A stretch of 64,000 bases of DNA from Takashimella koratensis (lineage: Eukaryota > Basidiomycota > Tremellomycetes > Trichosporonales > Tetragoniomycetaceae), in the NCBI GenBank assembly GCA_003116875.1, contig BCKT01000004.1:1200201-1264200 (forward strand). Reading direction: 5' to 3'. The position numbers and the translations under genes were made by a program. Below, in pieces: positions 16,060 through 60,819 of this stretch. The stretch's first letter is position 1, and the number at the start of each line of letters is the position of its first letter. The notes under the pieces were generated by a model that was not told the DNA's origin, ran no database searches, and was given only the letters and a program-made list of their open reading frames with translations.

Positions 16060-16603
16060 GGTTACGGGGGTGGGAGAGCGGGAGAGCGCTGCGGGTTAAG
16101 CTTGAGGCCGTTCGACGTTGGCTGTTGCTGGGTCGGAGTTGGATGGGCAAAGCGGACGTGGTGAAGTCAAGACGGACGTGGTGACTTTCACGTGGCAGGG
16201 AAGGAGCCCCACAGTTGGCCCAAATGTGGCGTGGCACTCAAGGCTCCTAACTGGTTCAGCATCCAACCAGTCAGGTGTGATAAAGGTCTCCTTTCAACAC
16301 ATCTGGGTCAAGATAAGACATGAGTCGAGCCGGACGGTAGATAGCCTGAGTTGTTGCCGCTTGCCAGCTTGGTGCGCTTCAGCATGTAGCCAGTCTTGTT
16401 TTGCATATATATATATATCCTTTCTCCGGTTTCACTGGCTAAAAGGTGCTCTGACTTGGGCTGGGCCGGGAGCTGCGAGGACTCCACCTCCGACCTCGGG
16501 AAACATTGAGTACAAAAAGACAGCACCAGAAAAGTTTTCTCGCCATCAGGAATTTCTTTCGACCCCTATCCAACATCAGTTCTTAGGCAAACTAAAGCAA
16601 GAT
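16060..16603. promoter_or_regulatory. Divergent intergenic region with TATA-like run
   Basis: Between the KRE5 start (-) and the first PTP-like gene (+). A (TA)n stretch at about 16404-16416 lies some 190 bp upstream of the PTP-like start and could serve as its TATA element. No other gene seen. Confidence 0.4.
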
Positions 16604-17842
16604 ATGGACAACGCAACAAAAGCAGTCAACGAGAGGTGGACGCTTTTAAACAATCGCCCCAAGGACCGCACACTGCAGCTCACAAACAGTATCACCGGTA
16701 TCAAAGCTGTCCAGAAGGTCTACAGCCGCGGGAACACAATCCTTCTAGACCCAAACGATTGGACAACTTGGTCCGTTGGCACCGAGGTAAGCTGATGACA
16801 AACAAAACTTGGTCTGACTCTCTATCAGGAGCCCGAAAAAGAGTTTGTAGCGGATTTCCTCCAGACGATTCTTGATCAGGCAGGCTACAAGAGCCTCCTC
16901 CATCGTAAAGTCATATCTCAGGAGGACCTGGACAAATGTCCACCTTGCCCGGTCGCCATCATCACGCGACTCAATGGAGAAACTCCTCAATATGACCAGA
17001 GTGATAATAGCGATGTTGACTTTCATTTCGATTACCCTCTTTACCTTCCGTACGTCCTCAATGCCCCAGGTGAACCTTTGCTGACATGGTCACAGCCAAA
17101 ATGGGCAAATGCAAGCTGTCTTTCCGGTCAAAGACAGCAACATGGAGTACGTAGTGGAACGCTCCCAGCCACTTGGAGAAGATGGGACAAGTGGCCGCTA
17201 CCTCTTTGGCGCAGAGGATACCTTTTACGAGAAGTTCAAACTATACAGCAGAAACGAGGGGGAAACCAAGCCGAGCTCGAAGATCATGGGTATCCACCAT
17301 CTAACTTTCAAAAGGTGGCAGGACTATACTGCCCCCAATGCTGCGACTAATATCGCTCTCCTAAAGCTCCAAGGCTTCAGGAAAGATTTAAGGCAGAGGT
17401 TGGGCGGCGCCGCCTGTACATCTATCCGTCACTGGTAAGCCCTGAGGACAAGAACACGGGGTGCTGACCAGTTAGTGACGCAGGCAAGGGCAGACTGGGG
17501 ACTGATTATGCACTCGAAATGATCACTGACCTTCATCCCGAAGTGACTTACCAGATTGCCAAGGACGAATCCCAAGCCACCGCCACGTTGGACAGAGTTC
17601 TTACTCAAGATGTGGTCGATGTAGCCAAGACCTCTCGAAACCTTGCATGGAGTTCAATTTACTCCAATGATAGCGGTATCACTGGCGAGCAAGCTGAAGA
17701 CCTCGCCTTTGTATCGACCGATATGGGAAGGCAACAGAGGTATGGATTTGTATATAAGCCAGTTCAGTATCTTTTCCTTAATAGCTATTCGCATTGGTGT
17801 GAGTCTGTGCGGCGCCTTGTTGAGGAGACTACCTCTCAGTGA
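16604..17842 (+). CDS. Divergent PTP-like protein, copy A of tandem array
   Basis: Four exons (16604-16786, 16829-17049, 17096-17434, 17476-17842) give about 369 aa. Splicing exon 3 to exon 4 rebuilds a cysteine codon (TG at 17433-17434 plus T at 17476) and yields HCDAGKGRLGTD, matching the PTP loop HCX5R. About 45 residues earlier lies HHLTFKRWQDYTAP, resembling the WPDxGVP loop. Near the C-terminus GRQQRYGFVYKPVQYLF resembles the PTP Q-loop block (RxQRxGMVQTxxQYxF), but the catalytic glutamine is absent. The general-acid aspartate may be retained (WQD). The N-terminal half has no clear KNRY block. Classical PTPs hydrolyse phosphotyrosine; activity here is uncertain. No signal peptide or TM. 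Copies B-E follow on the same strand. The family call rests on motif order, not overall similarity. Confidence 0.7.
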
Positions 17843-17999
17843 ACTGCTTTTTCAACTCAGGCGGAGAATCGGTCTGCCATCTGTGCACATCAGAGACATT
17901 CATCTTTACAGTATGCAAAGCACCGCGGCCCTGTCTCTGTCCCCTTCATCACCCTTGGGCGATTTCGTTATCTTTCTCCCTGAACCTGCCAAGCAAGAT

Positions 18000-18186
18000 G
18001 TTAGGTATGGCATCTGAGGACGCCTGAAGCGGTCCGAGCGCTCCCGAAGTACCTGGGATGCCGAGAGGGGACCGAGCGGGGTGGCGCAGGCCGAGGCCAC
18101 GGAGAACAATAAGGCCACTGGTAGCGGCAACGCAGCGCTGCGGCGCACGGGCCCACGAGCGGTTGCGGCCGCGGAGAACAACGGGG
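18000..18186 (+). repeat. Dispersed ~190-bp repeat, copy 1
   Basis: GC-rich segment about 160 bp downstream of PTP-like copy A. It shares blocks such as CGAAGTACCTGGGATGCC, AGAGGGGACCGAGCGG, GTGGCGCAG and GAGCGGTTGCGGC with the segments at 19285-19464 and 61150-61350 (both in opposite orientation). Borders were taken as the limits of visible similarity. No coding potential or terminal repeats identified. Nature unknown. Confidence 0.65.
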
Positions 18187-18366
18187 ATGCATGAACAACG
18201 CGCAAGCGGTCGAGGCCGATCTGGTGGAGTTAAATAGCAGCCTGTAGCGTCGAGAGATGAATCCCCAACCCGTTGAAACCTAACATTCCGTGAGTACGAG
18301 CGAATAGGACAAAAGTGCCAAGCTGATATACCAATCGAATCATTACTCATATCAGAGGGAAAACAG

Positions 18367-19173
18367 ATGTTCGTGCTGTATTCTCATGCAAAGGCCTTTC
18401 TGCCGGCTACCACCTCCCATTTGCAGACAAAAACAACCGAATACGTGGTTGAGCGGAAGGCGGAATGGACTGAGATTGAGGGTGAACTTCAGCCCTCGAA
18501 AGTCGATTTCGGAAGGTTTCTCTTCGGCGCGGAAGACGTCTTTTACGAAACTTTCCATCTGTACACTCAATTCGACGGAAAAATCACACCGTCTTCACGC
18601 ATCACCGAGCTCCACGTCCTCACTGATAACCGGGCCATTGACATGGAAGGGCTCACTGCAGAGGCAACAATCGCGAGGCTCAAGCTCCAATCATTCAGAC
18701 GAGAGCTCAGAAAAAGAAAAGGCGGCTGGATGTGCATCAAACAGACTCACTGGTAAGACGTATATGATACCAACCGCTGATTTGGTCACAGCGACGTAGG
18801 TTTTGGTCGAACGGGCACTGACTTCTTCATCGAGCGGACCGCCGAAGACTTCCCGGAAGTGGAATTGCTTATGGAAAGAGATGAAAACAAGCTCTTCTCT
18901 CTTTTCAAAGAGAGCATCGACGAAGACCAGACCGACATTGTCGTCACCGATCGCAAGGTGACACACAGTACGACCTGGAAAGACTTTGACGAAAAGCTTC
19001 CTCTCGAGATCCTTAACGATCGAGTCTTTGTGACCATTGACATGCTCAAGCAAGAACGATTCGGGTTGATCTGGAACTTGACACAATTCACGTACGCATA
19101 CAGCTTCACCCGCGGCTGTGAAGCTGTCAGAACGTATGTCGAGGAGTTAAATACAAAGAGACGAACAGATTGA
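18367..19173 (+). pseudogene. PTP-like copy B, 5'-truncated
   Basis: Equivalent to the last two exons of copies A, C, D and E (18367-18752 and 18792-19173). Matching starts at TTEYVVERK, aligned to NMEYVVERS of copy A. Nothing resembling exons 1-2 exists in the 180 bp between it and dispersed repeat copy 1. The joined exons give HCDVGFGRTGTDFF, a canonical-looking CX5RTG loop with the Cys codon split by the intron (18751-18752 plus 18792). The C-terminal block KQERFGLIWNLTQFTYAY corresponds to the Q-loop region. The ATG at 18367 would give a 256-aa protein, so it may still be expressed as a short form. Calling it a pseudogene is inference from the missing N-terminal half. Confidence 0.6.
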
Positions 19174-19284
19174 AGGCGGCGATACGTGCAGGCTCGATGT
19201 TAGGTTGGGGATCCATCTCTCGACATTACAGACAAGCTATTTGTATCTGTCTACTCGGTCGCAATCCCTAGCGCGTCATCCATG

Positions 19285-19464
19285 TATCCCCTTTTTCCCC
19301 GCGGCCGCAGCCGCTGGTGGCCCGAGCACCGCAGCGCCAGCTAGTGTCTCTGTTGTTCTTCGAACGGTCTCGGCCTGTGCCACCCGGTACGAACCGTTCT
19401 CGGCATACTAGGGACGCCGGGACCGCACCGACCGCTTCCGCACTCTTCCGCCGTCACACCTAAC
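19285..19464 (-). repeat. Dispersed ~190-bp repeat, copy 2 (inverted)
   Basis: On the minus strand this segment aligns along its length with 18000-18186, sharing GTTAGGT at the start, TATGCCGAGA, GGTGGCACAGGCCGAGACC and GCGGCTGCGGCCGCGG. It is more diverged than copies 1 and 3 are from each other. Copies 1 and 2 bracket the truncated PTP-like copy B in opposite orientation. Confidence 0.6.
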
Positions 19465-19899
19465 CGTCAAACAGTACGTCAACGACACCTCTGTGCATCA
19501 GGATGGGTGGCGGTCGCAGCAAGAGCTCAGCAGTGAGGTTTGTCTGCTTGATAATATGAAGGTGATATGAACTTGGGATTTCCCAGGACCTCAGAGCTCC
19601 TTTTGTCGTATCTAGGTTGGGTTCTTGTGTCATGGCTTGTAGTCGTTCGGCTCGATAGATGAGGTCCAAGCCGCCACACTCAGCCTTTTAACAAGAGCAG
19701 TGTGGCAGGTATGGGGCTTAGTAATACTGTAGGTCACTCCTTTTCCTACATGCTACCCCCTTTGATCGGGCTTGGAATGAGACACACAACATGCTGGCCG
19801 CACATGGAGGACTCATACCTCGTTTGCAGTGTTGTTTCCTCCCAATTTTCTCACCGTACACTCCGTCCTGTCTGACTCGAACAAGAACGTCATTCCAAC
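19465..19899. other. Intergenic, nothing recognised
   Basis: No coding exon or repeat recognised between dispersed repeat copy 2 and the PTP-like pseudogene copy C. Confidence 0.4.
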
Positions 19900-21128
19900 A
19901 TGGACTATCTTACCGAGGAGCTGTTCAAGAGGACGAAAGTTTTGTTCCAGCGCAACCAGTCACGAGAGTGGCCTTCGGAATTCAATCTCGCCAACATCAG
20001 CGGGGACCTTTGCCACAGTGGGCAAACCCTCCTCACAGACCCAAACGATGTGTCGGATTGGTGTATCGTGGTCGAGGTTGGTGAATTGTTGCACGAATGT
20101 AGACAACTTTCTGACCTGTTATCAGGAGCCGAAGCATTCCCTGGACATCTTACGTTTCCTGGGAGACATCCACGGGCACACCGGTCACAAAAGTCTGGTT
20201 CACCGCGGGGCCATTTCAGAAGATTACCTGAAGAGCGTTCCGCCGACCAATTTCGCCATCATCTCCGACTGAATGGCGCAGATGGGACATCCCTGTACCT
20301 GCCGTAAGCTTACGTAAAACTTTCACCAGAATCACTAACTTTTCTGTTTGTCCCGACAGGAGAAATGGGGAGTGGCAAGCTGTCTTTCAATTCAAGGACG
20401 GCAGCAAAGAATTTGTCGTCGAAAGACAAGAAAACAAGGAGGAAGGGGCCGACTCTGAAGAGAAGAACAAGGGCAATGGCAGATTTCTGTTCGGCGAGAA
20501 AGACACTTTTTACGAGACCTTCAAGCTGTACACCAGGCGTACTGGGGGGACGACCCCCCTTTCTCACACGATCGAAATGCACGTGCTGACGCTGAACACA
20601 TAGCCGGACGGACAAGGACTACCGCCTGAATCTGCAATACCTCTGTTGAAGAACCAAACATTCCGGAGGACGCTGTAGACCGAGCACGAGGGATGGCGGT
20701 GTGCGTTGGTGAAACATTGGTGAGTTGAAGTGCTCTTCGATCACTGAACTATGCAGAGTGCGAACTTGACCGGTCGAACCGCTGGGGAATGTGCCTTTGA
20801 GAGAGTCACCCAAGCTTTTCCCGAGCTTTTCACTTTGCTGGGGAAAGACGAGGCCAAGCTCTCCACGATCTTCAGTCGATATCTCGGTGGTAAAGAGGTT
20901 CTCATTAACATCCCGACTAAATGGACAATTCCTTATCATTCTTTCAGGCCGACCGACGATGCAATACCTGCTGCCTTTGAAGAAGACCACATCTTCAAGC
21001 TCGTCGACATGTTTCGACAACAGAGGCCGGGGCTCTTTGCGGAAGCAATCAACCTCGCTTCAATCTACATGTGTCTTCGATCCTGTGAAGCGGTCCAAGA
21101 GCATATCAGTCAGGAAGATTTGAGTTAA
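19900..21128 (+). pseudogene. PTP-like copy C, disrupted
   Basis: Same four-exon plan as copy A: MDYLTEELFKRTKVLF..., EPKHSLDILRFLGD..., NGEWQAVFQFKDGS..., then the loop exon. Three lesions are visible. A one-base loss in exon 2 near 20263-20270 throws the frame into TGA at 20270; relatives read through as RLNG here. In-frame TAG codons lie at 20601 and 20676 within exon 3, where copy B is open. The loop exon still reads CANLTGRTAG after joining TG (20718-20719) to T (20759). The C-terminal block FRQQRPGLFAEAINLAS lacks the Q-loop glutamine. The first intron donor is GTTGGT rather than GTAAG/GTGAG. Decayed gene, unless unusual splicing rescues it. Confidence 0.72.
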
Positions 21129-21802
21129 TTCAAAGAAAAAGGTAGTATGCGTTCCAAGTGGAGTGGTTTTGGAATCGATATGAAAGGATCAATGATCCCA
21201 AGTTACATCCGGTGAGTTGTTCCCTACCCAGGAGAGGTTTCTGGTTACCTGACTGATCACCATCTCTCCTTCGACAGCCAATCGGGGGCGAAGACGACTG
21301 AAGGCGACCGAGTGGACAGATGGGAGGTGCTGGAAGAATTCATGAGAGTTGACAGATACTTTGAACTCATGTACTGCACTGTATGTGGCATTGCACAGGA
21401 GAGAGGGTGAGGACTGTTTTGGACTGGACGGTGGAGTATCTCATCGGGATGGACTAGGACACCATGTGTGAGAGCAGTACAAGCCATCTCCTCCCAAGAG
21501 GGTGATCCCCACAACTCACCGTTTGCCCTCCCGCCAAATGTGACAGAGTAAAGGAGCACCCTGGCTTACGACTTGAAACCAAAACTCGAACTCCGATCCA
21601 CGCACTCTTCTTAGGTCTTCCTTTCGTCCTGCCCCGCATGTCTCATGAGCCGGGTATGTAGTCTCTCCGGGCAATACTGCCTTTCCGTCTCCTTTAGACC
21701 GACACATCCAACTCGTGTTGAACCCTTTCCAGACTTACTCGCAGTCTGCTTGGTATCCTTGTGATCTTCTTTGCCACTCTGCACACCGAGAATTTTGTAG
21801 TC
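21129..21802. other. Intergenic between PTP-like copies C and D
   Basis: Contains possible intron-like signals (GTGAGT near 21211, CGACAG near 21278) and short open frames without similarity to the array. It could include 3' UTR of copy C or promoter of copy D. Nothing definite. Confidence 0.4.
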
Positions 21803-22960
21803 ATGCCGTTCGACATTCAGCCCGAGTGGGACTTCCTGCGCGGGCTCCGAAGCATCCATAGGGACAACGTCTCTCACAACTTTGCGCCAGAAGAAGGGTA
21901 TTATTGGACCGCAAGTACCATCATTCTTCCTAATTCAGAGACTTGGTTCAGCGCGGGACCGGTACGTTGACTATTCGCTCCGAGAGATCACTCTGATACT
22001 GATTCTGAGGCGCTTTAGGAGGTCTGGTGTTCGGGTGAAGCCTACTCGTTTTTGATGGCTCATCTGGAGAGATTGGGGGAGCAAAACCACTCGCGCCTGA
22101 CCGGTCAAGACTATGTACCATCCAAATCCCCGCCACCCTTCATTGTGACCCGATTGAACGGCAACGAGGACTTTTGGTCAAATCATCTACCGTGAGCTGT
22201 TCTTCTGCCGCTGGGAACAAAATGACTAACTCGACGCAGCGAAGAAGGTCGCAGATATGAACGCTTTGCGTCTAAAGATTGTGAAGACTTTGTCTCTGTG
22301 ACTAGGCTCAAAGAAGAAAAGCGAGAGTACGGGATGTACTCGATGTATCAAATCGACCACGAGATCACCGGACGGAGTCGGGTCATGCATCACTTCGACT
22401 ACCCGAGTTTCCCTGACGACGGCATCTTGGATACAGAGGACACGATGATGTACTTTAAATTGTCGTGGGATGCACGACAACTTAGAGCAAGCTTGGGAGG
22501 GACCAAATGCGGGTCCACAATGCACTGGTACGTCCCCAGTAAGAGCCGAGCTGAGCAGGAAAGCCGGATGGCTTCGGGTAGGACCGGGGTGATGTCGGTT
22601 GTCGAAGTCTTCCTCGACAGATACCCCGAGGTCTTTGAAATGGTCAACCATGAAGTACACGGACCGATACTGACAGGGTTCATCCGCGACAGCTTGAACT
22701 CAGAGCCATATACCGTAGTGCCCACGCACTGGAGTGTGGACTACGTGCCTCAGGGCGAAAACGATCAGCCCATTCCGGAAGAGTTTGGTGACAACATCCC
22801 GCTCAAAGTTCTTGCATCTTTGCGCCAACAGAGGTGGAGTCTTGTGAGGGGGAAGAAGCAGTACGCGTACACGAAGAAGCTCTTGAGTGGACTGGAGAAG
22901 GCTAGGTCCTACTGGCTTTCCCTAAGCCAAGAGTTGGACACTCCGTCAACTGCTGCTTAG
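21803..22960 (+). CDS. Divergent PTP-like protein, copy D
   Basis: Four exons (21803-21961, 22019-22191, 22240-22527, 22564-22960), about 338 aa. This copy is the clearest link to tyrosine phosphatases: EYGMYSMYQIDHE, then GRSRVMHHFDYPSFPDDGI (compare RxVxHFHFTxWPDxGV), then MHCRMASGRTGVMSVVEVFL (compare HCSAGxGRTG), then LRQQRWSLVRGKKQYAYTKK (compare LRxQRxGMVQTxxQYxF). General-acid Asp, nucleophile Cys and P-loop Arg are all present; the Q-loop Gln is Arg. An earlier stretch, FIVTRLNGNEDFW, resembles the IATQGP...DFW block. The Cys codon is split by the intron (TG at 22526-22527, C at 22564). The acceptor used must be AAAG at 22560-22563, because the nearer CAG leads to a stop. Of the array, the best candidate for residual activity. 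Confidence 0.75.
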
Positions 22961-23338
22961 TGCTTGAGACTTGCTGGGTCCTATCTAAGTTGTCTTTTGG
23001 GATAGAATGAACTATGTTTTCGCACAACCAGCAAGACAAGAGAACAGAGAGGGGTCAACTAGACCTGACCGCCGCAAAGCGGGACGGAGTAAAGGAGCAA
23101 GTTGCTCACATGGCGACGTCCAGACTCGGGCTCCCAAACCCTCTTTTATGTTTCCTCCTTTTTGACACTGTGAATGTCGAAAGACGCGGAGTTCAGTCTG
23201 GCTGCCAAGGTTTGCTTGCCTCAGGACTGGAGCAGACGCCGCACAAATTGTAGATATATCATTTTCCCCTCTTTTTCTGCACTTTGCATTTCATTTCTTT
23301 CCATAATCCCTATTCTACCTTATTTGGAGCTTTCCGTC
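22961..23338. other. Intergenic between PTP-like copies D and E
   Basis: A 378-bp spacer holding presumed 3' flank of D and promoter of E; pyrimidine-rich before the E start. Nothing else seen. Confidence 0.4.
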
Positions 23339-24538
23339 ATGGAGGTTGACCTGAGGTCAGAATGGAAGGTGTTGTGCGAACGCCAAGCATTCCACAAAGA
23401 ACAAGAAGAACATGACTTCAAACGGGTCCATGAACTGGCGTTCTGGGAAAACGCAAGTACCATCCTTCATCCTACTTCCAGGATTTATTCCAACGCTGGG
23501 CCAGTAAGTCACCCGTGCAGTCTTTGAAGACTAGTGTTCCCGCCGCTAACTGCTGCCTGGTATCCGTTAGGAGGATTGCCAGGATTTCGGGGCGTACTCG
23601 TTCCTCATGTCCCACCTTTTACAGCATGGCGAGTTGGACCATGCCAGAGTGACAGGGCAAAAATACATTTCGTCCGACAACCCGCCACCCTTCATTGTGA
23701 TGAGGTTGAACGGCTTCGAAGATTCCGTGTCAAACCATGTACCGTGAGCGATTTGTTGCTCAAGGAAGGACCTTACTGATGGAAGCAGCCAGGATGGTAG
23801 CACGCAAGAACGCTTTGCCTCGTCAGAAGACAGAAAAGACTTTGTCTCCGTGACCCAGCTGAAAACGGCGGCTCGAGATTACGGGAGCTACTCGGTCTAT
23901 CAGATCGACCATGAATCCACAGGCCGGAGCAGGATCATGCATCAGTTCGATTTCTCTCATTTCCGCAACAATGCCGTCTTGGATTCAAAGGGGACGATGT
24001 TGTACCTGAAGATGTCTCAGGAGCAACGAGCTTTGAGAGAAAGCTTGGGAGGAACCTTGTGCCCACTGACGATACAATGGTAGGTTGTTGCACTTCAGCT
24101 CGCTAATCGTGCAGCCGCGGTGGTACGGGCAGAACGGGGGTCTCCGAAGTCGTCGAGGCTTTCCTCGACATGTACCCTGAGATCCTTGAAACGATCGGCG
24201 ACAAGATTCACGGTCCCATCCTCAGTGACATCGTCAAGAAAGTATTGACCTCTCCGGCGACTCATGTGCGTCCGGCGCACTGGAGTCTGGCCTACATTCC
24301 TCGGAGTGCCAAAGACCTCCCTATACCCGAGGAATACAAGAACAATGTACCTTTTATTATGTTGGAGGACTATCGGCAGCAACGGTGGTCGCTGGTGAGC
24401 ACGATCAGGCAATACGAGTACACCGTCAAGATGTTGGGAGTGATGGACAGCGTGAGGACGTACTGGCTGTCTCGAAGCCACCAAGCGTGTCTTCCTTCGA
24501 CGGACCCGACGAAGTCGAGCGAACCGAGAGAGGGCTGA
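23339..24538 (+). CDS. Divergent PTP-like protein, copy E
   Basis: Closest sister of copy D: exons 23339-23503, 23571-23743, 23789-24079 and 24115-24538, about 350 aa. Exon 2 is 173 nt in both D and E, and exon 3 differs by 3 nt. Joined exons 3 and 4 give QCRGGTGRTGVSEVVEAFL: Cys and Arg of the CX5R loop are kept, but the preceding His is Gln. The WPD-equivalent is SHFRNNAVLD, so the general-acid Asp is apparently lost (Asn). The C-terminal block YRQQRWSLVSTIRQYEYT keeps the scaffold of the Q-loop but not its glutamine. Predicted low activity or pseudophosphatase (inference). Alternative: a non-enzymatic phosphotyrosine binder. Ends about 280 bp from the convergent Num1-like gene. Confidence 0.72.
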
Positions 24539-24820: not shown

Positions 24821-27800
24821 TCACGCCGCAGTCTGAGGGGTCGAGAGGACGCTGCTGTGAACGCTGGCGTTATCTCCCCCACGCCTGAACACCGATCCCG
24901 GCTGTTTGAACCCCGACGAAGCGCCGCTGGCCCTGCGAGACCTCATGGACGGAGTGAATGGGGTCGTGGAGCGTGACTGCGACTGAGGAACGTCCCCATC
25001 GTGGTCGTGGTGGTGATGGTGGTGGTCACCGACGAGGTGTTTACCGTCGCAGCAGGCTAAAAGCATTTTAGTCAGCTTTCGCCCTCACACATCTCAGTCG
25101 AGCACCTTGACTCACCTCGGACATTGTCCATGCCTTCAAAGTCATCAGGCTCGTCACCGTCGTCACGCATGACGACATCAAACTCCCCTTCGGCATCCGC
25201 GATCGGTGCGCCCTTGTACGTCCCCTTATACCTGTGCCCACCATGCAAGGTCGTCGGGACCTCGTGTCGTCGATAATACTCTGCTGCTGCGGTCCCTGCA
25301 CGCTTGTTCGTCCCGATCGTCGAGGGAGCACGACCGACCGTTCCTCCCATCGCGGATTTGCTGCGGATCGTGCCGTTATTGATCTGGCTGGCACGAGGCG
25401 TGGTGCCCAGGGACTGGCGGCTGGCGATCGATCGGAGGCTCATGGGAGATTTAGGAACGAAAGCGCCGTGTTCGTCCGGAACGACGGAGAGGCGGGAGCG
25501 GGAACCAAGGGTACGGATGTTGTCGGTGCTCGCAGCGGCGAGCTGGTCAGTGACAGGTCCCGTGGTCTGCTGCTGGAGCAGGAACTGAAGCGCCTTTGAG
25601 GAGTCAGCATGGGACGATATCAAATGTGAGGCAGGTACTCACCGACATCCATAGCTCGTGCCTCGCCTGAGTCGGCGCGGTGAATTGAATCTCCCGGCCA
25701 AGGGTGGTCACGATGATGCTCTTAGAGTAGAGGCCTGCAGGGGACGGGTTCGGGTCGTCGATCGCACGGACCGCTGAGATATACACTGTTCATTGTGTTA
25801 GTCTACTGCTTTACGATTGCCTTCCCAATGACTCCCACTTACCACTCTTAGCAGACGACTCGGAGGTCGACGAGCTTCCCGGGTCCTCAGACGACCAGTA
25901 CAGCGTCTTAGTGTACGGGTGTACCCAGAAGAATCGCTTGTGCCTCGTCTCGGAGATCCCCTTCCCAAAAGTCCTCCTTGTATACTTGTACAAGTACTCT
26001 CCGATCATGGTCTGCGTGATCGCCTGGATCGTGGGTGCGTCAGTGCCCGCACCACCGATGGAGGCCGCGTTGGGCCTACGCGCCGAGGCGGGACCAACGA
26101 CGCTTTCGAACGACGACATGGATGGGTTGCGCTCGAGGATGCTCGAGGCGGCCGAGGTGTACCCGCCGTTGATATGAGGCGCGGTCCGGCGACGGACGCT
26201 GTTGCCCTTGGCCCAGGTGGGGTCGGTGGTCGTTGGTGTCGACGGGTTGGTGCGGAAGCTGCTTGCGGAGGCCTGGCGAGTCGCGCTCGGAGGAGGCATG
26301 TTGGTGCCGTTGGTCGAAGCGCGGAGGGCCGCACCTGCCGCCGAGGGACCGACGACGCGCGAACGACGCTGGGTGCCGGTACTGAAGGATGGCGAGGTCG
26401 CGCGGTGGATGTACTCCTCTGGCGGCGGGGAAGTGGGGCGCGCAGGCGGGCCCGTCGACTGCTTCTTGACGTTGATCGTCGAAGGCGGCGGCATCGACGG
26501 TGGCGGAGGGAGGTTCATCGTTGGCGGCCTAGTCTTGTCCGGCTCCTCTGCAACAGAGGAGATACCCAGGCCCTCGATGTCGGACGCGTTCGAGACATCG
26601 CGAGAGCGAGGGAGACCAGTGATATCGTCGCGCTCTTTGCCGTTCGCGCCAAACGTGTCGGCAGAGGCACGGTGTAATGCCTTGGCGGCCGCACTGACGC
26701 TTTGCGCGGGAGGGGCCTTGAGGAAGTCATAGTTGGCTCCTGGGGTGACTCGGAAGAGGCCAACGTCGGGAGCAGGGACGGTGGGGCTGGTAGAGAGCGA
26801 GGCGAGGGGGTCGGTTTGAGTGCCGAGTTCGGTCTGCTCGCCACGAGCGACGGGAACCTCAACGATCTTCTCGACGATCTTCTCTACCTCGACAATCTTC
26901 TCAACCTCCACGATCTTCTCCACCTCAACAGGCACTTCGACAATCTTCTCGACAGTAACCTCTTTGATGATCTCCACTGGTACCTCTTTAACCACTTCCA
27001 CCGGCACCTCTTTGAACACCTCCACAATCTTCTCCACAACTTTGTCCACCTCGACCGGAACCTCGACGCGCTTCTCGACGATCTTCTCGACCTCGACAGG
27101 CACCTCGACGATTCGATCCACGGGGACCTCGACGCGTTTCTCGACAATCACCTCGACCGGCTTCTCGACAATCTTCTCGACTTCGACAATCTTGTCAACC
27201 GGAACCTCTTTGATGATTTCAACGGTTCGTTCAACAATCTTCTCGACAATCTTCTCGACTTCGACGATTCGATCGACCGGTTTCTCGACCTCGACAATCT
27301 TTTCGACAATCTTCTCGACATCGACGTTGACGGGGACCTCGACGATCTTCTCGACGATTTTTTCCACCTCGACGAGTTTAGGAACTTCCACAATCTTCTC
27401 TACAATCTTCTCCACAATCTTCTCAACCTCTACAATCTTCTCTACCTCCACAATCTTCTCTTCGATCTTGGGCACCTCGACGATGCGCTCCACGATCTTC
27501 TCGACTTCGACGATGCGGTCGACGGGTTTCTCGACAATGACGTCGACCGGCTTTTCGACAATCTTTTCAACCTCGATGATCTTCTCGACGACCTTTTCGA
27601 CAATAACCTCGACGGGCTTCTCGACGATGACCTCGACAGGTTTCTCGACAATGACTTCGACAGGTTTCTCGACGATCTTTTCGACTTCGACAATCTTCTC
27701 AACCTCCACAATCTTCTCGACAATTCTGTCGACGGGCACTTCGACAATCTTGTCGACCTGGACCTCGACGATTTTCTCGACGATGCGATCGACCGGAACC

Positions 27801-30414
27801 TCGACGATCTTTTCAACCGCAACTTCGACAATCTTCTCCCGCTCGACGATCCTGTCCACGGGAACTTCGATGGTCTTCTCGACAACCCTGTCGACAGGGA
27901 CCTCGACGATACGCTCGACGATCTTCTCCACTTCAACCTGGACAATCTTCTCAACGGGGACCTCCACAATCTTCTCGACAATGCGGTCGACAGGCACTTC
28001 GACGATGCGGTCAACCGGTACCTCGACAATCTTCTCGACGATCCTCTCCACAGGAACTTCAATGACACGTTCCCTGCTTGCCATGCGAGCGGCGCGGCGA
28101 GCCTCAGCCCACCCGCCTGCTGCCGCTGCTGCACCGAGACCAAGCGCTCCGGCGGCAATAGGTACGTTGAGTCGCTGGGTCGAGTTCTCCTCCTCGCCCT
28201 CGCTTTCGCCAGCGCTCGAGTCGCCAGCGGACGTGTGGTACTCGCGGCCAGTCGCGTACGCTTCCGTCTCAGTCTCGGTAGCGTCGCCGTCCGAGCCTGC
28301 GCGAGGCGGAGTCAGGGTGCCAACAGTCTCGCGCGCGTCGGTAAAGTCGCCATCGGTATCGGTAGTCATGTCGTCGCCACTGATGGAGCGAGAGAAGCCG
28401 TGCACCAGGCCGCTTGGCTGCGACGGCTGGTGGTGAGGGAGAGCCATAGAGTGCTTGGTAGGGGTCGACATGGAGGTAGTCGAGATGGACGGAGCCAGGG
28501 TCGAGGGACGAGCAGGCGTGGACAAGGCATCGTCGAGAGTCGGGACATTCGGCGCCTGCTTGATCGTCGCGCTGCTCTCGGATGTGGGAGTGACCTCGGG
28601 CTCGTCCGCTTCGAGATCGTCTCCGAGTGTCGGACCCATAGCCATGGCGAGCGACTCGGGCTCTCGTGGGGATACTGGGGAGTCGGGCTCAGTCGAAGGG
28701 TTGCGAGAGGTGCGAAGGAGGTCGGGTGTAGCGGATGAGTTGGAACCAAAGCTCCTGTCTCCCGAGGTGGAGGAAGAGATGCTGATTCCAGACGATGCAC
28801 GCGGGAAACCAAGCTTGCGGCCGATGGTCGCTGCCAGCCCGCCGCCACGTCCACCACGGCCTCGACGACCACGGACCGACCCCTTCCCACGACCCGATAT
28901 GGTCGCGTCGTCGAACTCGCTGTTGCCCTTTGCGCCAAACTCGTCCGCAGCCACCGGCGCCGCGATCGCAGCGGCCGCAAGCTTCTCAGCACGCTCACGC
29001 CCAAGCTCCTCCTTCAACCCTTCGATCTCCTGCCGAGCCTGCTCGAGGCTGGCGCGGAGCTCGTCGGCGTCGTTGACAAAGAGCTCACCCAGTGGAGACC
29101 GGATGTAGACCTTGTCTCCAGGTTTGGACGGGGTGGGTTCGGGAGAGTCAAAGTCGGACGAGTAAATCTGGGACGGGGAGAGGGCTTGGTCGTTGGCGTC
29201 AAAGCCCGGACCACGCTTGCGAGGGCTCAAATCTGCGCCCGAACCAAATACGTCGTCCTCCGGCACCTCGTCGTCGTCTTGTCGAACCGCAGGGCTTGCT
29301 GACCCGCCACGCGACGCTCGGCTCCTGATCGCGTGCGCACGGCGCTGTCGCTCCGCGTTGAGCTCGGTCATGAGGTCGCTCTTATCACGAGCGAGTCCCG
29401 CAGTCTGCTTGCGAGCTTGGGCCATTTCCGTCTCGTGCTTGGCCTTGAGGTCTTCAATCAGCTGCGCGTTCTTCTCCGCTTCGGTCTTCTGCGCCTCGCC
29501 CGTCTCGCGCGCTTGGGTAAGCGCCTTGTTGAGCCTCGTGTGCTCGGCCGTCGTCTTGGTCAACTGGTCCTGAGCGTCGGCGTGCGACGATCTGAGCTCC
29601 TGCAAGCTGACTTCGAGATTCCAATTGTCGTCCTTGTAGCGGTCTAGTTGTTAGTTTGGGTTTGACACGAGTACACACCGGCATTGGTCTCGGCTGCACG
29701 GACTGCGGCCATCAAGCTGTTCTTCTCCGACTCCCACGATTCCTTTTCTTCACCGAGTCGCTCCAGCGCTCGGTCCCGTTCGCTCAGAAGAGATTGCAGC
29801 CGACGAACTTCGACCAAGAGGTTCTGTCCGATCTCGGTTGCAAACTCCATATCAAGAGTGCGATGCTGGGCATTCCGCTGGCGTCGGGTGAGTGTGCTGG
29901 GCGCGGCCCCGTCGGCGTCGGCCTTGCTCGGTGTTGTGGGTGCTGCTGTGGGAACTTGGAGCATCTGGTTGATATATTAGTATTGAGTGGCGCAATGACT
30001 CACCTTTGTCGATCCAAGCTCGCGAATGATGGTTTGGTTCTCTCCTTCCCAAGTCTTCATTGCGTCCTCGAGCTCGAGCAGCTTTTGCTTCGACTCGTCG
30101 CTGACCTGCCCGTTGGGTTCGTTATCAGCAAACGCCCGAACGCGCTCCTCCAGCTCAGCCTGCTGTGTGAGGATCTGCTGGCCCATCGCTCCGATCATCT
30201 GCAGCTGGTTTGACTTGTGGTCGATCAAGGTCTGCAGGTGGGAACGGAGGGAAGCGCCGTCGAGGTCTGGAGTGATGAGCGCTGGCGACATGGCGGAGGC
30301 GTCGAGGTTGTTGAGGGAGTGGGAGGAGGGGGGAGCAGGGAGAGGGATGGAAAGGTCGGGTCGAGAGCGTTGACGCCGCATGGAAGGAGTAGGCGGCGAG
30401 AAGGGGTCGTCCAT
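24821..30414 (-). CDS. NUM1: Num1/ApsA/Mcp5-type cortical PH-domain protein
   Basis: Cortical anchor for dynein and mitochondria in fungi. The start at 30414 (MDDPFSPPTPSMRRQRS) opens exon 1 (to about 30003). Exons near 29963-29680 and 29645-25845, three smaller exons and a last exon (25060-24821) follow. Domains in order: N-terminal coiled coils (EELERVRAF, NLLVEVRRLQSLLSERDR, AEHTRLNKAL), a Ser/Pro-rich middle, about 420 residues of EKIVEVPV/DRIVEVPV/VEKIVEK repeats (about 28080-26830), a Pro/Ser-rich linker and a PH domain beginning MIGEYLYKYTRR with HKRFFWVHPYTKTLYWS, typical of the Num1 PH domain that binds PI(4,5)P2. A His-rich and basic tail closes it. Estimated length about 1,700 aa. 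The repeat explains the long antisense open frames on the plus strand, which are not genes. Confidence 0.9.
26830..28085 (-). repeat. Intragenic IVEVPV/IVEK coding repeat
   Basis: Degenerate tandem array inside the Num1-like gene, with 7-11 residue units built from K/R-I-V-E-V-P-V-D/E and V-E-K-I-V-E-K. On the plus strand it reads as CTCGACGATCTTCTCGAC-like units. Probably an extended, charged spacer. Confidence 0.9.
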
Positions 30415-59477: not shown

Positions 59478-60819
59478 CAGTGGGGGGAAATAATAATTTG
59501 TGATAGTGGCAACGTTTTCATCTTGCATAGCTACCAAACTACAGACCTGTGGTGACCATTCTCCTCCACTTCGTGTTTGTTCTCTGCAAGCTCTTGTCAG
59601 TATGTGCTGTGGAGTCCTGCTTACCAAAAGCTCTCAATACTTGGTTGTTTTTCCTTTGTTCCTTCTCACTGCAGCTAACCTCTTCGGCATGCTTTTGATG
59701 GTGGCATCAATGACCTTTTGATCAATCTTGCGCCAGGCGGTCTGGGCTGCTTCAAACAGATCATCAACATTGGTGGGGCAATGGGGGAGATTGGCAAGCT
59801 TTGTCTTGAGCAATCCCCAACAGTTCTCTATTGGATTTAGGTCAGGGGAGTTGGGAGGATGTTCAAGGTACTTGAAACCCTGCTCCTTGGCAACCTTCTT
59901 GCTAAGCTTTGCTGTATGGATGCTAGCACCATCTTCCACAATGAAAGGTAGTCCATAGCCCTTCCAGCGTCGCTTCATGCCAATCCAGATGTCCCTAAGG
60001 ACCACCTTTGTGATCTGCTCCTGATAGATTGAACCTGTTACACCCTTTCGCTTGCCAGTGCTGTTTGAGGTGTCAAAGCGAATGAGATCTGATCTTCCAC
60101 CACGCCAAATGGCTGCCCAAACCATGACTCCCTGCCTGCTTGAACGAAATGCAGGCTTGAGGCACTGAGAAGCATAGGCCTCTCCCTCTTTACGGGTCAC
60201 CCAAGTGCTCACCTGATTGAATAAGGTTATCTGGGATTCATCCACAAAGATAACCCATCCCCAATCAAGGCCACCATAAAGAACACTGTAGTGACAACGC
60301 AGAGCGCGGTGCCAACAAGTTAGGAATGGTTTGAAGCATGTCTTGTAGCGTTTTACTCCAGCAGCCTTAAGGTAAGCCCAAAGTGTGCAAGGACAGATCT
60401 TCACACCTAGTTGTTCAAAGTGAGAGCAGAGCACTTTGAGCGGCAATGTTGGATTTGTCCTTGCATAGCGGATCAATTGACGCCTGGTTCGTTTGTTGTA
60501 CTTCTTAGGACGCCCGCAATGTGGTCGATCGCGCAGGGAGCCAAAGCGTTGCTGCTTCAGCTCCAGGTTATGAACAGTGTTGGGGTGACAGCCATGTTTC
60601 TTAGCAGCTGCCTTTTTGGTGATGTACTCAGCTGTACCAACAATCCTGCCGCGCTTTGAGGGTGAGAAATGCTGGCCAGGCATGGCAAGGGAAGAGTAAT
60701 GGAAAGAAGAGAGAGCAGAGATGCGCGGAAGCATGAGAAAAGTGGAGCTGAAGGTGTGCGACTCCTGGTTGTCATGTGCCAATGACGCCACTATCACAAA
60801 TTATTATTTCCCCCCACTG
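59478..60819 (-). mobile_element. Tc1/mariner DNA transposon, complete
   Basis: 1,342 bp bounded by perfect 33-bp terminal inverted repeats (59478-59510 and 60787-60819; both begin CAGTGGGGGGAAATAATAAT read inward). A TA dinucleotide sits immediately outside each end (59476-59477 and 60820-60821), the target duplication expected for this superfamily. It contains a single intact transposase gene on the minus strand. Identical ends and an open frame indicate recent insertion and possible mobility. Confidence 0.95.
59634..60734 (-). CDS. Tc1/mariner-type DDE transposase
   Basis: Cut-and-paste transposase, 366 aa from the ATG at 60734 or 349 aa from the ATG at 60683 (MPGQHFSPSKRGRI). N-terminal paired helix-turn-helix region: IVGTAEYITKKAAAKKHG and LRDRPHCGRPKKYNKRTRR, then the IS630/Tc1-type catalytic core. 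Catalytic triad: Asp in WVIFVDESQ, Asp in FIVEDGASIH, Glu in SPDLNPIENCW, with 34 residues between the second Asp and the Glu (DD34E). The ending KSMPKRLAAVRRNKGK is typical. No intron, stop or frameshift, unlike the intron-rich host genes. Basic C-terminus. Confidence 0.95.
   Translation of the reverse strand: MLPRISALSSFHYSSLAMPGQHFSPSKRGRIVGTAEYITKKAAAKKHGCHPNTVHNLELKQQRFGSLRDRPHCGRPKKYNKRTRRQLIRYARTNPTLPLKVLCSHFEQLGVKICPCTLWAYLKAAGVKRYKTCFKPFLTCWHRALRCHYSVLYGGLDWGWVIFVDESQITLFNQVSTWVTRKEGEAYASQCLKPAFRSSRQGVMVWAAIWRGGRSDLIRFDTSNSTGKRKGVTGSIYQEQITKVVLRDIWIGMKRRWKGYGLPFIVEDGASIHTAKLSKKVAKEQGFKYLEHPPNSPDLNPIENCWGLLKTKLANLPHCPTNVDDLFEAAQTAWRKIDQKVIDATIKSMPKRLAAVRRNKGKTTKY

Follow-up and report, generated by a model that had tools for sequence, protein, structure and literature searches.

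The stretch of DNA analysed here, referred to as the window, comprises 64,000 nucleotides of contig C4 of the basidiomycete yeast Takashimella koratensis (C4:1200201-1264200), and it was examined together with the whole genome of 25.1 Mb in 24 contigs. Between positions 16604 and 24538 lie five related stretches resembling genes for protein tyrosine phosphatases (PTPs), here called A to E, arranged head to tail on the + strand (Table 1). The initial annotation described them as a tandem array of five genes; the coordinates and the homology of the five copies hold, but B is without exons 1-2 and C is broken, which leaves A, D and E as the intact ones. The splice models were derived from genomic sequence and profiles, and the GT-AG introns used for A, B, D and E are 35-67 bases long. 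In copy C the frame is ended by a TGA at 20270-20272, the homology continues in a different frame, and TAG codons follow at 20601-20603 and 20676-20678. By pairwise BLASTP, D and E are 50% identical (6e-122), A and B 37% (4e-50), A and D 24% (6e-17), and A and E 24%. When a profile built from A, B, D and E was searched against the 1539 six-frame open stretches of the window (at least 25 aa), it gave 15 matches, all within 16106-24535.

The tandem cluster does not stand alone: contigs C20 and C5 carry relatives, and contig C14 a founder-type gene. Overall, the array-type family includes at least 11 copies at three loci (C4, C20 and C5), five of them on C4; five copies are intact, five are truncated or broken, and G is placed in neither group. 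The genome searches score the best candidates only, and J escaped them and surfaced when flanking DNA was scanned; therefore, 11 copies is a lower bound. No further copies were found in the 10 kb flanking the window on each side.

Table 1. Array-type copies and the repeats beside copy B. Positions without a contig name are those of the window.
Feature	Location	Strand	Structure and state	P-loop	WPD site
Copy A	16604-17842	+	four exons (16604-16786, 16829-17049, 17096-17434, 17476-17842); intact; 369 aa	HCDAGKGRLG	WQD
Copy B	18367-19173	+	exons 3-4 only (18367-18752, 18792-19173); 5'-truncated; open, 255 aa	HCDVGFGRTG	AID
Copy C	19900-21128	+	broken	CANLTGRTAG (exon 4)
Copy D	21803-22960	+	four exons (21803-21961, 22019-22191, 22240-22527, 22564-22960); intact; 338 aa	HCRMASGRTG	FPD
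Copy E	23339-24538	+	four exons (23339-23503, 23571-23743, 23789-24079, 24115-24538); intact; 350 aa	QCRGGTGRTG	FRN (Asp lost)
Copy G	C20, 163.3-164.5 kb		modelled without its 5' part; placed in neither group	CQEGLGR
Copy F	C20, 164.9-166.2 kb		intact; 375 aa	CEAGLGR
Copy H	C20, 167.2-168.6 kb		broken	CAAGELR
Copy J	C20:172273-173492 (172.3-173.5 kb)		four exons; intact; 353 aa	DSSGDSI at this position
Two remnant stretches	C20, one near 170.3-170.6 kb		the latter weak (E 0.042)
Two copies	C5		both broken	CLAGEQR, CYGGTGR
Dispersed repeat copy (~287 bp)	17999-18285	.	lies left of B; TGTTAGG...CCTAACA ends; identity to other copies in the genome up to 98%
Older inverted copy of the same repeat	19203-19464	.	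lies right of B; arms of an inverted repeat; matches elsewhere in the genome at 69-85% identity

Exon junctions and relation to a canonical PTP

Joining exons 3 and 4 had been proposed to rebuild a CX5R loop in the copies of the array. For each gene tested, GT-AG introns of about 30-130 bases around the exon 3/4 boundary that keep the frame open were enumerated, and a profile built from 23 outside orthologues of the C14 gene, array sequences excluded, was used to score every reading. The proposed junction (TG/C or TG/T) ranks first in all six genes: 32.8 bits against 21.7 for the next reading in A (9 readings), 20.4 against 15.1 in B (2), 26.7 against 17.0 in D (41), 15.3 against 3.0 in E (8), 53.1 against 42.2 in F (12), and 204.6 against 155.1 in the canonical C14 gene (3). 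In J, which was scored with the array profile, the proposed reading is the best of four. The rebuilt loops are confirmed; among the window copies the junction test covered A, B, D and E, and the loop of C was read by eye.

The genes were also compared with Pfam family PF00102. Spliced models of A (22.5 bits), D (29.0), E (27.8), F (42.8) and the C14 gene (80.1) exceed the curated cut-off of 20.9 bits, which B (13.1) misses; J has no match. As a control, ten unspliced pieces at exon level were taken from A, B, D and E: exons 3-4 of D with intron 3 retained reach 17.2 bits, under the cut-off, and the remaining nine have no PF00102 match. With the C14-type profile, F scores 53.5 bits, A 33.1, D 26.1, B 20.5 and E 14.7, whereas the best scores of 200 shuffles of each sequence are only 0.3 to 4.7 bits. 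Alignment A1 (A, B, D and E) was also compared with alignment A2 (the C14 gene and 23 of its 119 database matches), with a probability of 98.5 and an E-value of 3.9e-15 over 238 columns. A search of the PDB with the A/B/D/E profile found 121 sequences at E<=0.1, and the 60 best listed were all PTPs. The fold predicted for an incomplete, intron-retaining reading would agree with PTP ancestry.

Splice choice is able to make motifs, and nine of ten unspliced pieces are without a PF00102 match, as would be the case if the CX5R motifs had been created by convenient splice sites in unrelated orphan frames. Such an origin is extremely improbable, however, given the enumeration of introns against an outside profile, the shuffle controls, the occurrence of this intron in the C14 gene as well, and a profile-profile alignment that extends far past the P-loop.

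The C14 gene encodes a canonical basidiomycete PTP of 340 aa. In a protein-database search it had 119 matches at E<=0.001 among 3290 candidates, the best from Saitozyma podzolica (52%) and Cryptotrichosporon argae (51%). Next came Kwoniella, Vanrija, Cryptococcus and others, and Agaricomycetes ranked below them. Three intron phases, 0, 2 and 2, are common to the C14 gene and to A, D, E, F and J, with intron 3 lying within the catalytic Cys codon. Since this codon is split, the signature motif disappears from models that are unspliced or wrongly spliced. A public protein model of Kwoniella shandongensis reads VHW and then TGTF, skipping the P-loop exactly at the TG/C intron; it is probably a mis-spliced annotation of the same intron.

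A tree of 30 rows unites A, B, D, E and F in a single clade (100/98), which is nested in a clade with Tremellomycete C14-type proteins (98/97), while the C14 gene of T. koratensis itself joins two Trichosporonales, Cryptotrichosporon and Vanrija (95/81). Like C14-type PTPs (PF00102; e.g. S. podzolica EHS25_003456 and C. argae Q5752_004774), the array has CX5R, the WPD region, RxxR and the second Q-loop Gln. C14-type genes, however, retain NRY, WPDHG and the Q-loop, and the C14-type gene is single copy in T. koratensis, relatives on contig C3 aside, while the array type is multi-copy. Overall, it appears most likely that the array arose through duplication and fast divergence of a canonical C14-type basidiomycete PTP. 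PTP ancestry and fast divergence, the latter already suspected at the outset, are supported by the sequences, the splice junctions, the intron phases and the tree.

Two more PTP relatives lie at C3:686701-690200, with HCTGGNGRTG and HCWAGVGRAG read by eye, and are closer to the C14 gene than to the array. Four of six scored C3 stretches match the C14-type profile only, one scores higher with that profile, and one is tied; these copies are treated as separate duplicates outside the array family. A third, weak place is found at C3:677304-677534. PF00102 matches on contigs C10, C1 and C2, which by eye we take to be Cdc14-like, Yvh1-like and an ordinary PTP, were excluded from the family count.

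Catalytic and recognition motifs

The CX5R P-loop is kept in 10 of the 11 copies. Those of A, B, D, E and F were computed, and those of C, G, H and the two C5 copies were read by eye at the same intron. The exception is J, in which Cys, Arg and the WPD Asp are all replaced in an intact frame. Among the nine copies in which the WPD site is readable, the Asp is kept in seven (A, B, D and F computed; G and both C5 copies by eye) and lost in E and J; stops make the site unreadable in C and H. An equivalent of the WPD loop had been assigned to A, D and E, which stands for A and D, and can be extended to B, but not for E, where the acid is missing. Likewise, the downstream block RQQRxGLV...QYxY, thought to be common to all copies, is exact in A, D and E, while B has KQER...QF and C has RQQR without QY.

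In the phosphotyrosine (pTyr)-recognition loop, NRY (KNRY) is invariant in all 24 C14-type rows of alignment A2; it is absent from all five intact genes of the family (A, D, E, F and J), with the reservation that the N-terminal alignment is uncertain, and B lacks that part. The first Q-loop Gln is replaced in all five aligned copies (Tyr in A, Trp in B, Arg in D, Ser in E and Leu in F), all of which retain the second Gln. Since NRY is gone, the array is not filed with the classical phosphotyrosine-specific PTPs. The pTyr-recognition loop makes PTPs select phosphotyrosine rather than smaller residues (PMC7320164); that every one of the five intact members is without it suggests that the substrate changed early. 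Cys, Arg and mostly Asp are present even in broken copies, which suggests that catalysis was probably selected during much of the history of the family. Among the intact genes, essential catalytic residues are lost from E (Asp to Asn) and J (Cys, Arg and Asp) but not from A, D and F. Phosphoinositide specificity was considered for A, whose P-loop Lys stands at what we take to be a PTEN-like position, and is too weak to claim.

Possible functions and fate of the family

On balance, the sequences point, by a slight preponderance, to a cluster that evolves by birth and death and encodes intracellular Cys-based proteins of phosphatase fold, among which competent enzymes with altered specificity would occur together with two pseudophosphatases. 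One possible scheme is as follows. A C14-type PTP may have been duplicated and then diverged fast into a multi-locus family. A, D and F would be competent by the ordinary PTP route, with attack by the Cys thiolate, the Arg holding the phosphate and the WPD Asp as general acid; their altered pocket would no longer pick phosphotyrosine in the classical manner and might accept other or smaller phospho-substrates. E and J would have lost catalytic residues separately and become pseudophosphatases that bind or shield phospho-proteins without hydrolysis, as EGG-4/5 sequester the kinase MBK-2 in Caenorhabditis elegans (PMC5603424). Candidate targets could be found in MAPK- or DYRK-type kinases, at their phosphorylated activation loops. 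Cryptococcus neoformans is described as having 21 PTPs but no more than three tyrosine-kinase-like proteins (PMC7445287), so that targets would first be sought among the activation loops of kinases.

Several points weigh against this scheme. The lost pTyr-recognition loop and first Q-loop Gln are normally important when PTPs turn over substrate. PTPRU, which has a divergent pTyr loop, is inactive although it retains the Cys (PMC7320164). J has no Pfam match at all, and the top PDB match of the array profile, PTPRA (E 1.8e-07), is a sum of weak domains with a best single-domain i-Evalue of 0.044. Long branches (array_F and own_C2_PTP) and false joins drew warnings from the tree program; the exact position of the array clade is unsure because of these branches. 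Finally, an unsaturated dS is available from the D-E pair only, so that the evidence for selection does not extend to A, F and J.

If the family were mainly pseudophosphatases, as the initial annotation had offered as one possibility, no substrate would be turned over, and its members would bind phospho-kinases or shield sites from true phosphatases in the manner of EGG-4/5 with MBK-2. In favour of this, NRY is absent from 5/5 intact genes and the first Q-loop Gln from 5/5 aligned copies; E is without the WPD Asp, and J is intact yet has lost Cys, Arg and Asp. PTPRU, moreover, is inactive despite its Cys (PMC7320164). It resembles the array in combining a divergent pTyr-recognition loop with a changed WPD acid; however, it is an animal receptor PTP with a divergent, disordered loop (PMC7320164), whereas in the array NRY is absent and the Asp is kept in A, B and D. 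EGG-3, EGG-4 and EGG-5 of C. elegans are PTP-like proteins in which key catalytic residues are missing (PMC5603424), as in J and partly in E, but these are animal proteins, and A, D and F of the array family retain the catalytic residues. A pseudophosphatase role fits E in the window and J on C20 rather than the whole family: CX5R in 10/11 copies and the WPD Asp in 7/9 readable ones, broken copies included, would be unexpected if catalysis had long been dispensable. A family made up mainly of pseudophosphatases is therefore considered possible but unlikely.

Decay was weighed with the substitution patterns. For D and E the Nei-Gojobori method gives a nonsynonymous divergence (dN) of 0.41 and a synonymous divergence (dS) of 1.46, a ratio of about 0.28. 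Third codon positions vary most in all nine pairs tried, and the other eight pairs say little on selection because their dS is above 2 or infinite. A relaxed gene family on its way to disappearing, composed of decaying duplicates without function, would account for the broken or truncated state of at least five of the 11 copies (B, C, H and two on C5), for the remnants on C20 and for the very long branches. However, A, D, E, F and J retain open four-exon frames and proper splice sites despite large divergence, and the D-E ratio is about 0.28; overall, such decay is judged improbable.

Beyond the birth-and-death cluster, a broader and rather doubtful scenario is that a housekeeping PTP became a fast-diversifying multi-locus family in which phosphotyrosine recognition was dropped first and catalysis later, in separate members. 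Conflict with parasites, mycoviruses or competitors acting on fungal kinases might have driven this. If so, the family would be a natural series from enzyme to pseudoenzyme. Whatever its history, a PTP expansion is present in a basidiomycete yeast beside the probable founder gene, with graded loss of first the recognition loop, then the general acid and then the nucleophile. It offers a tractable case for substrate change in a phosphatase or for conversion to a pseudophosphatase. It also illustrates how such families stay hidden, with the Cys codon split by an intron and the motif lost in unspliced models.

Distribution, repeats and neighbouring genes

The array had been proposed to be lineage-specific. 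Restriction of the family to this lineage is suggested by protein-database searches with alignment A1 (no match at E<=0.01 among 3854 candidates) and with F (no match at E<=10 among 1914 candidates), which found no relatives, but neither search recovered the known C14-type PTPs; since these were missed, diverged array relatives elsewhere would be missed as well. Lineage-specific PTP expansions also occur in nematodes. Among the matches listed in the open-licence literature no fungal PTP array was found. A large expansion of the PTP family is described in bracoviruses, likewise lineage-specific and fast-evolving, its duplicates being both tandem and dispersed (PMC3573978). The bracovirus PTPs, however, are viral virulence genes of wasps, up to 42 in number (PMC3573978), whereas the array consists of fungal chromosomal genes with no virus link seen. 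Among Tremellomycetes, Ptp1 and Ptp2 of C. neoformans are also PTPs, Ptp2 being described as a negative feedback regulator of Hog1 (PMC7445287). The array is much more diverged than these two.

Copy B is flanked by two copies of a dispersed repeat, with at least 41 genome-wide matches listed for the left copy and at least 40 for the right. With its TGTTAGG/CCTAACA ends, this repeat of about 290 bp looks like a non-autonomous DNA transposon. Capture of B inside one transposon was rejected, since the flanking inverted repeats are two copies of the dispersed repeat, one young and one old. No target-site duplication was seen at 17999-18285, unlike in two of seven other copies inspected by eye, which have 5-base flanking duplications (CCATG in L065 and GATCC in L066); this suggests a later rearrangement. 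Such a rearrangement near the repeat may have removed the first exons of B.

Adjoining the array, a 1204-aa frame on the minus strand (25811-29425) has an Mcp5-type PH domain at its C-terminal end. Farther along, at 59634-60734 on the same strand, lies a Tc1/mariner-type transposase frame (DDE_3, HTH_Tnp_Tc3_2).

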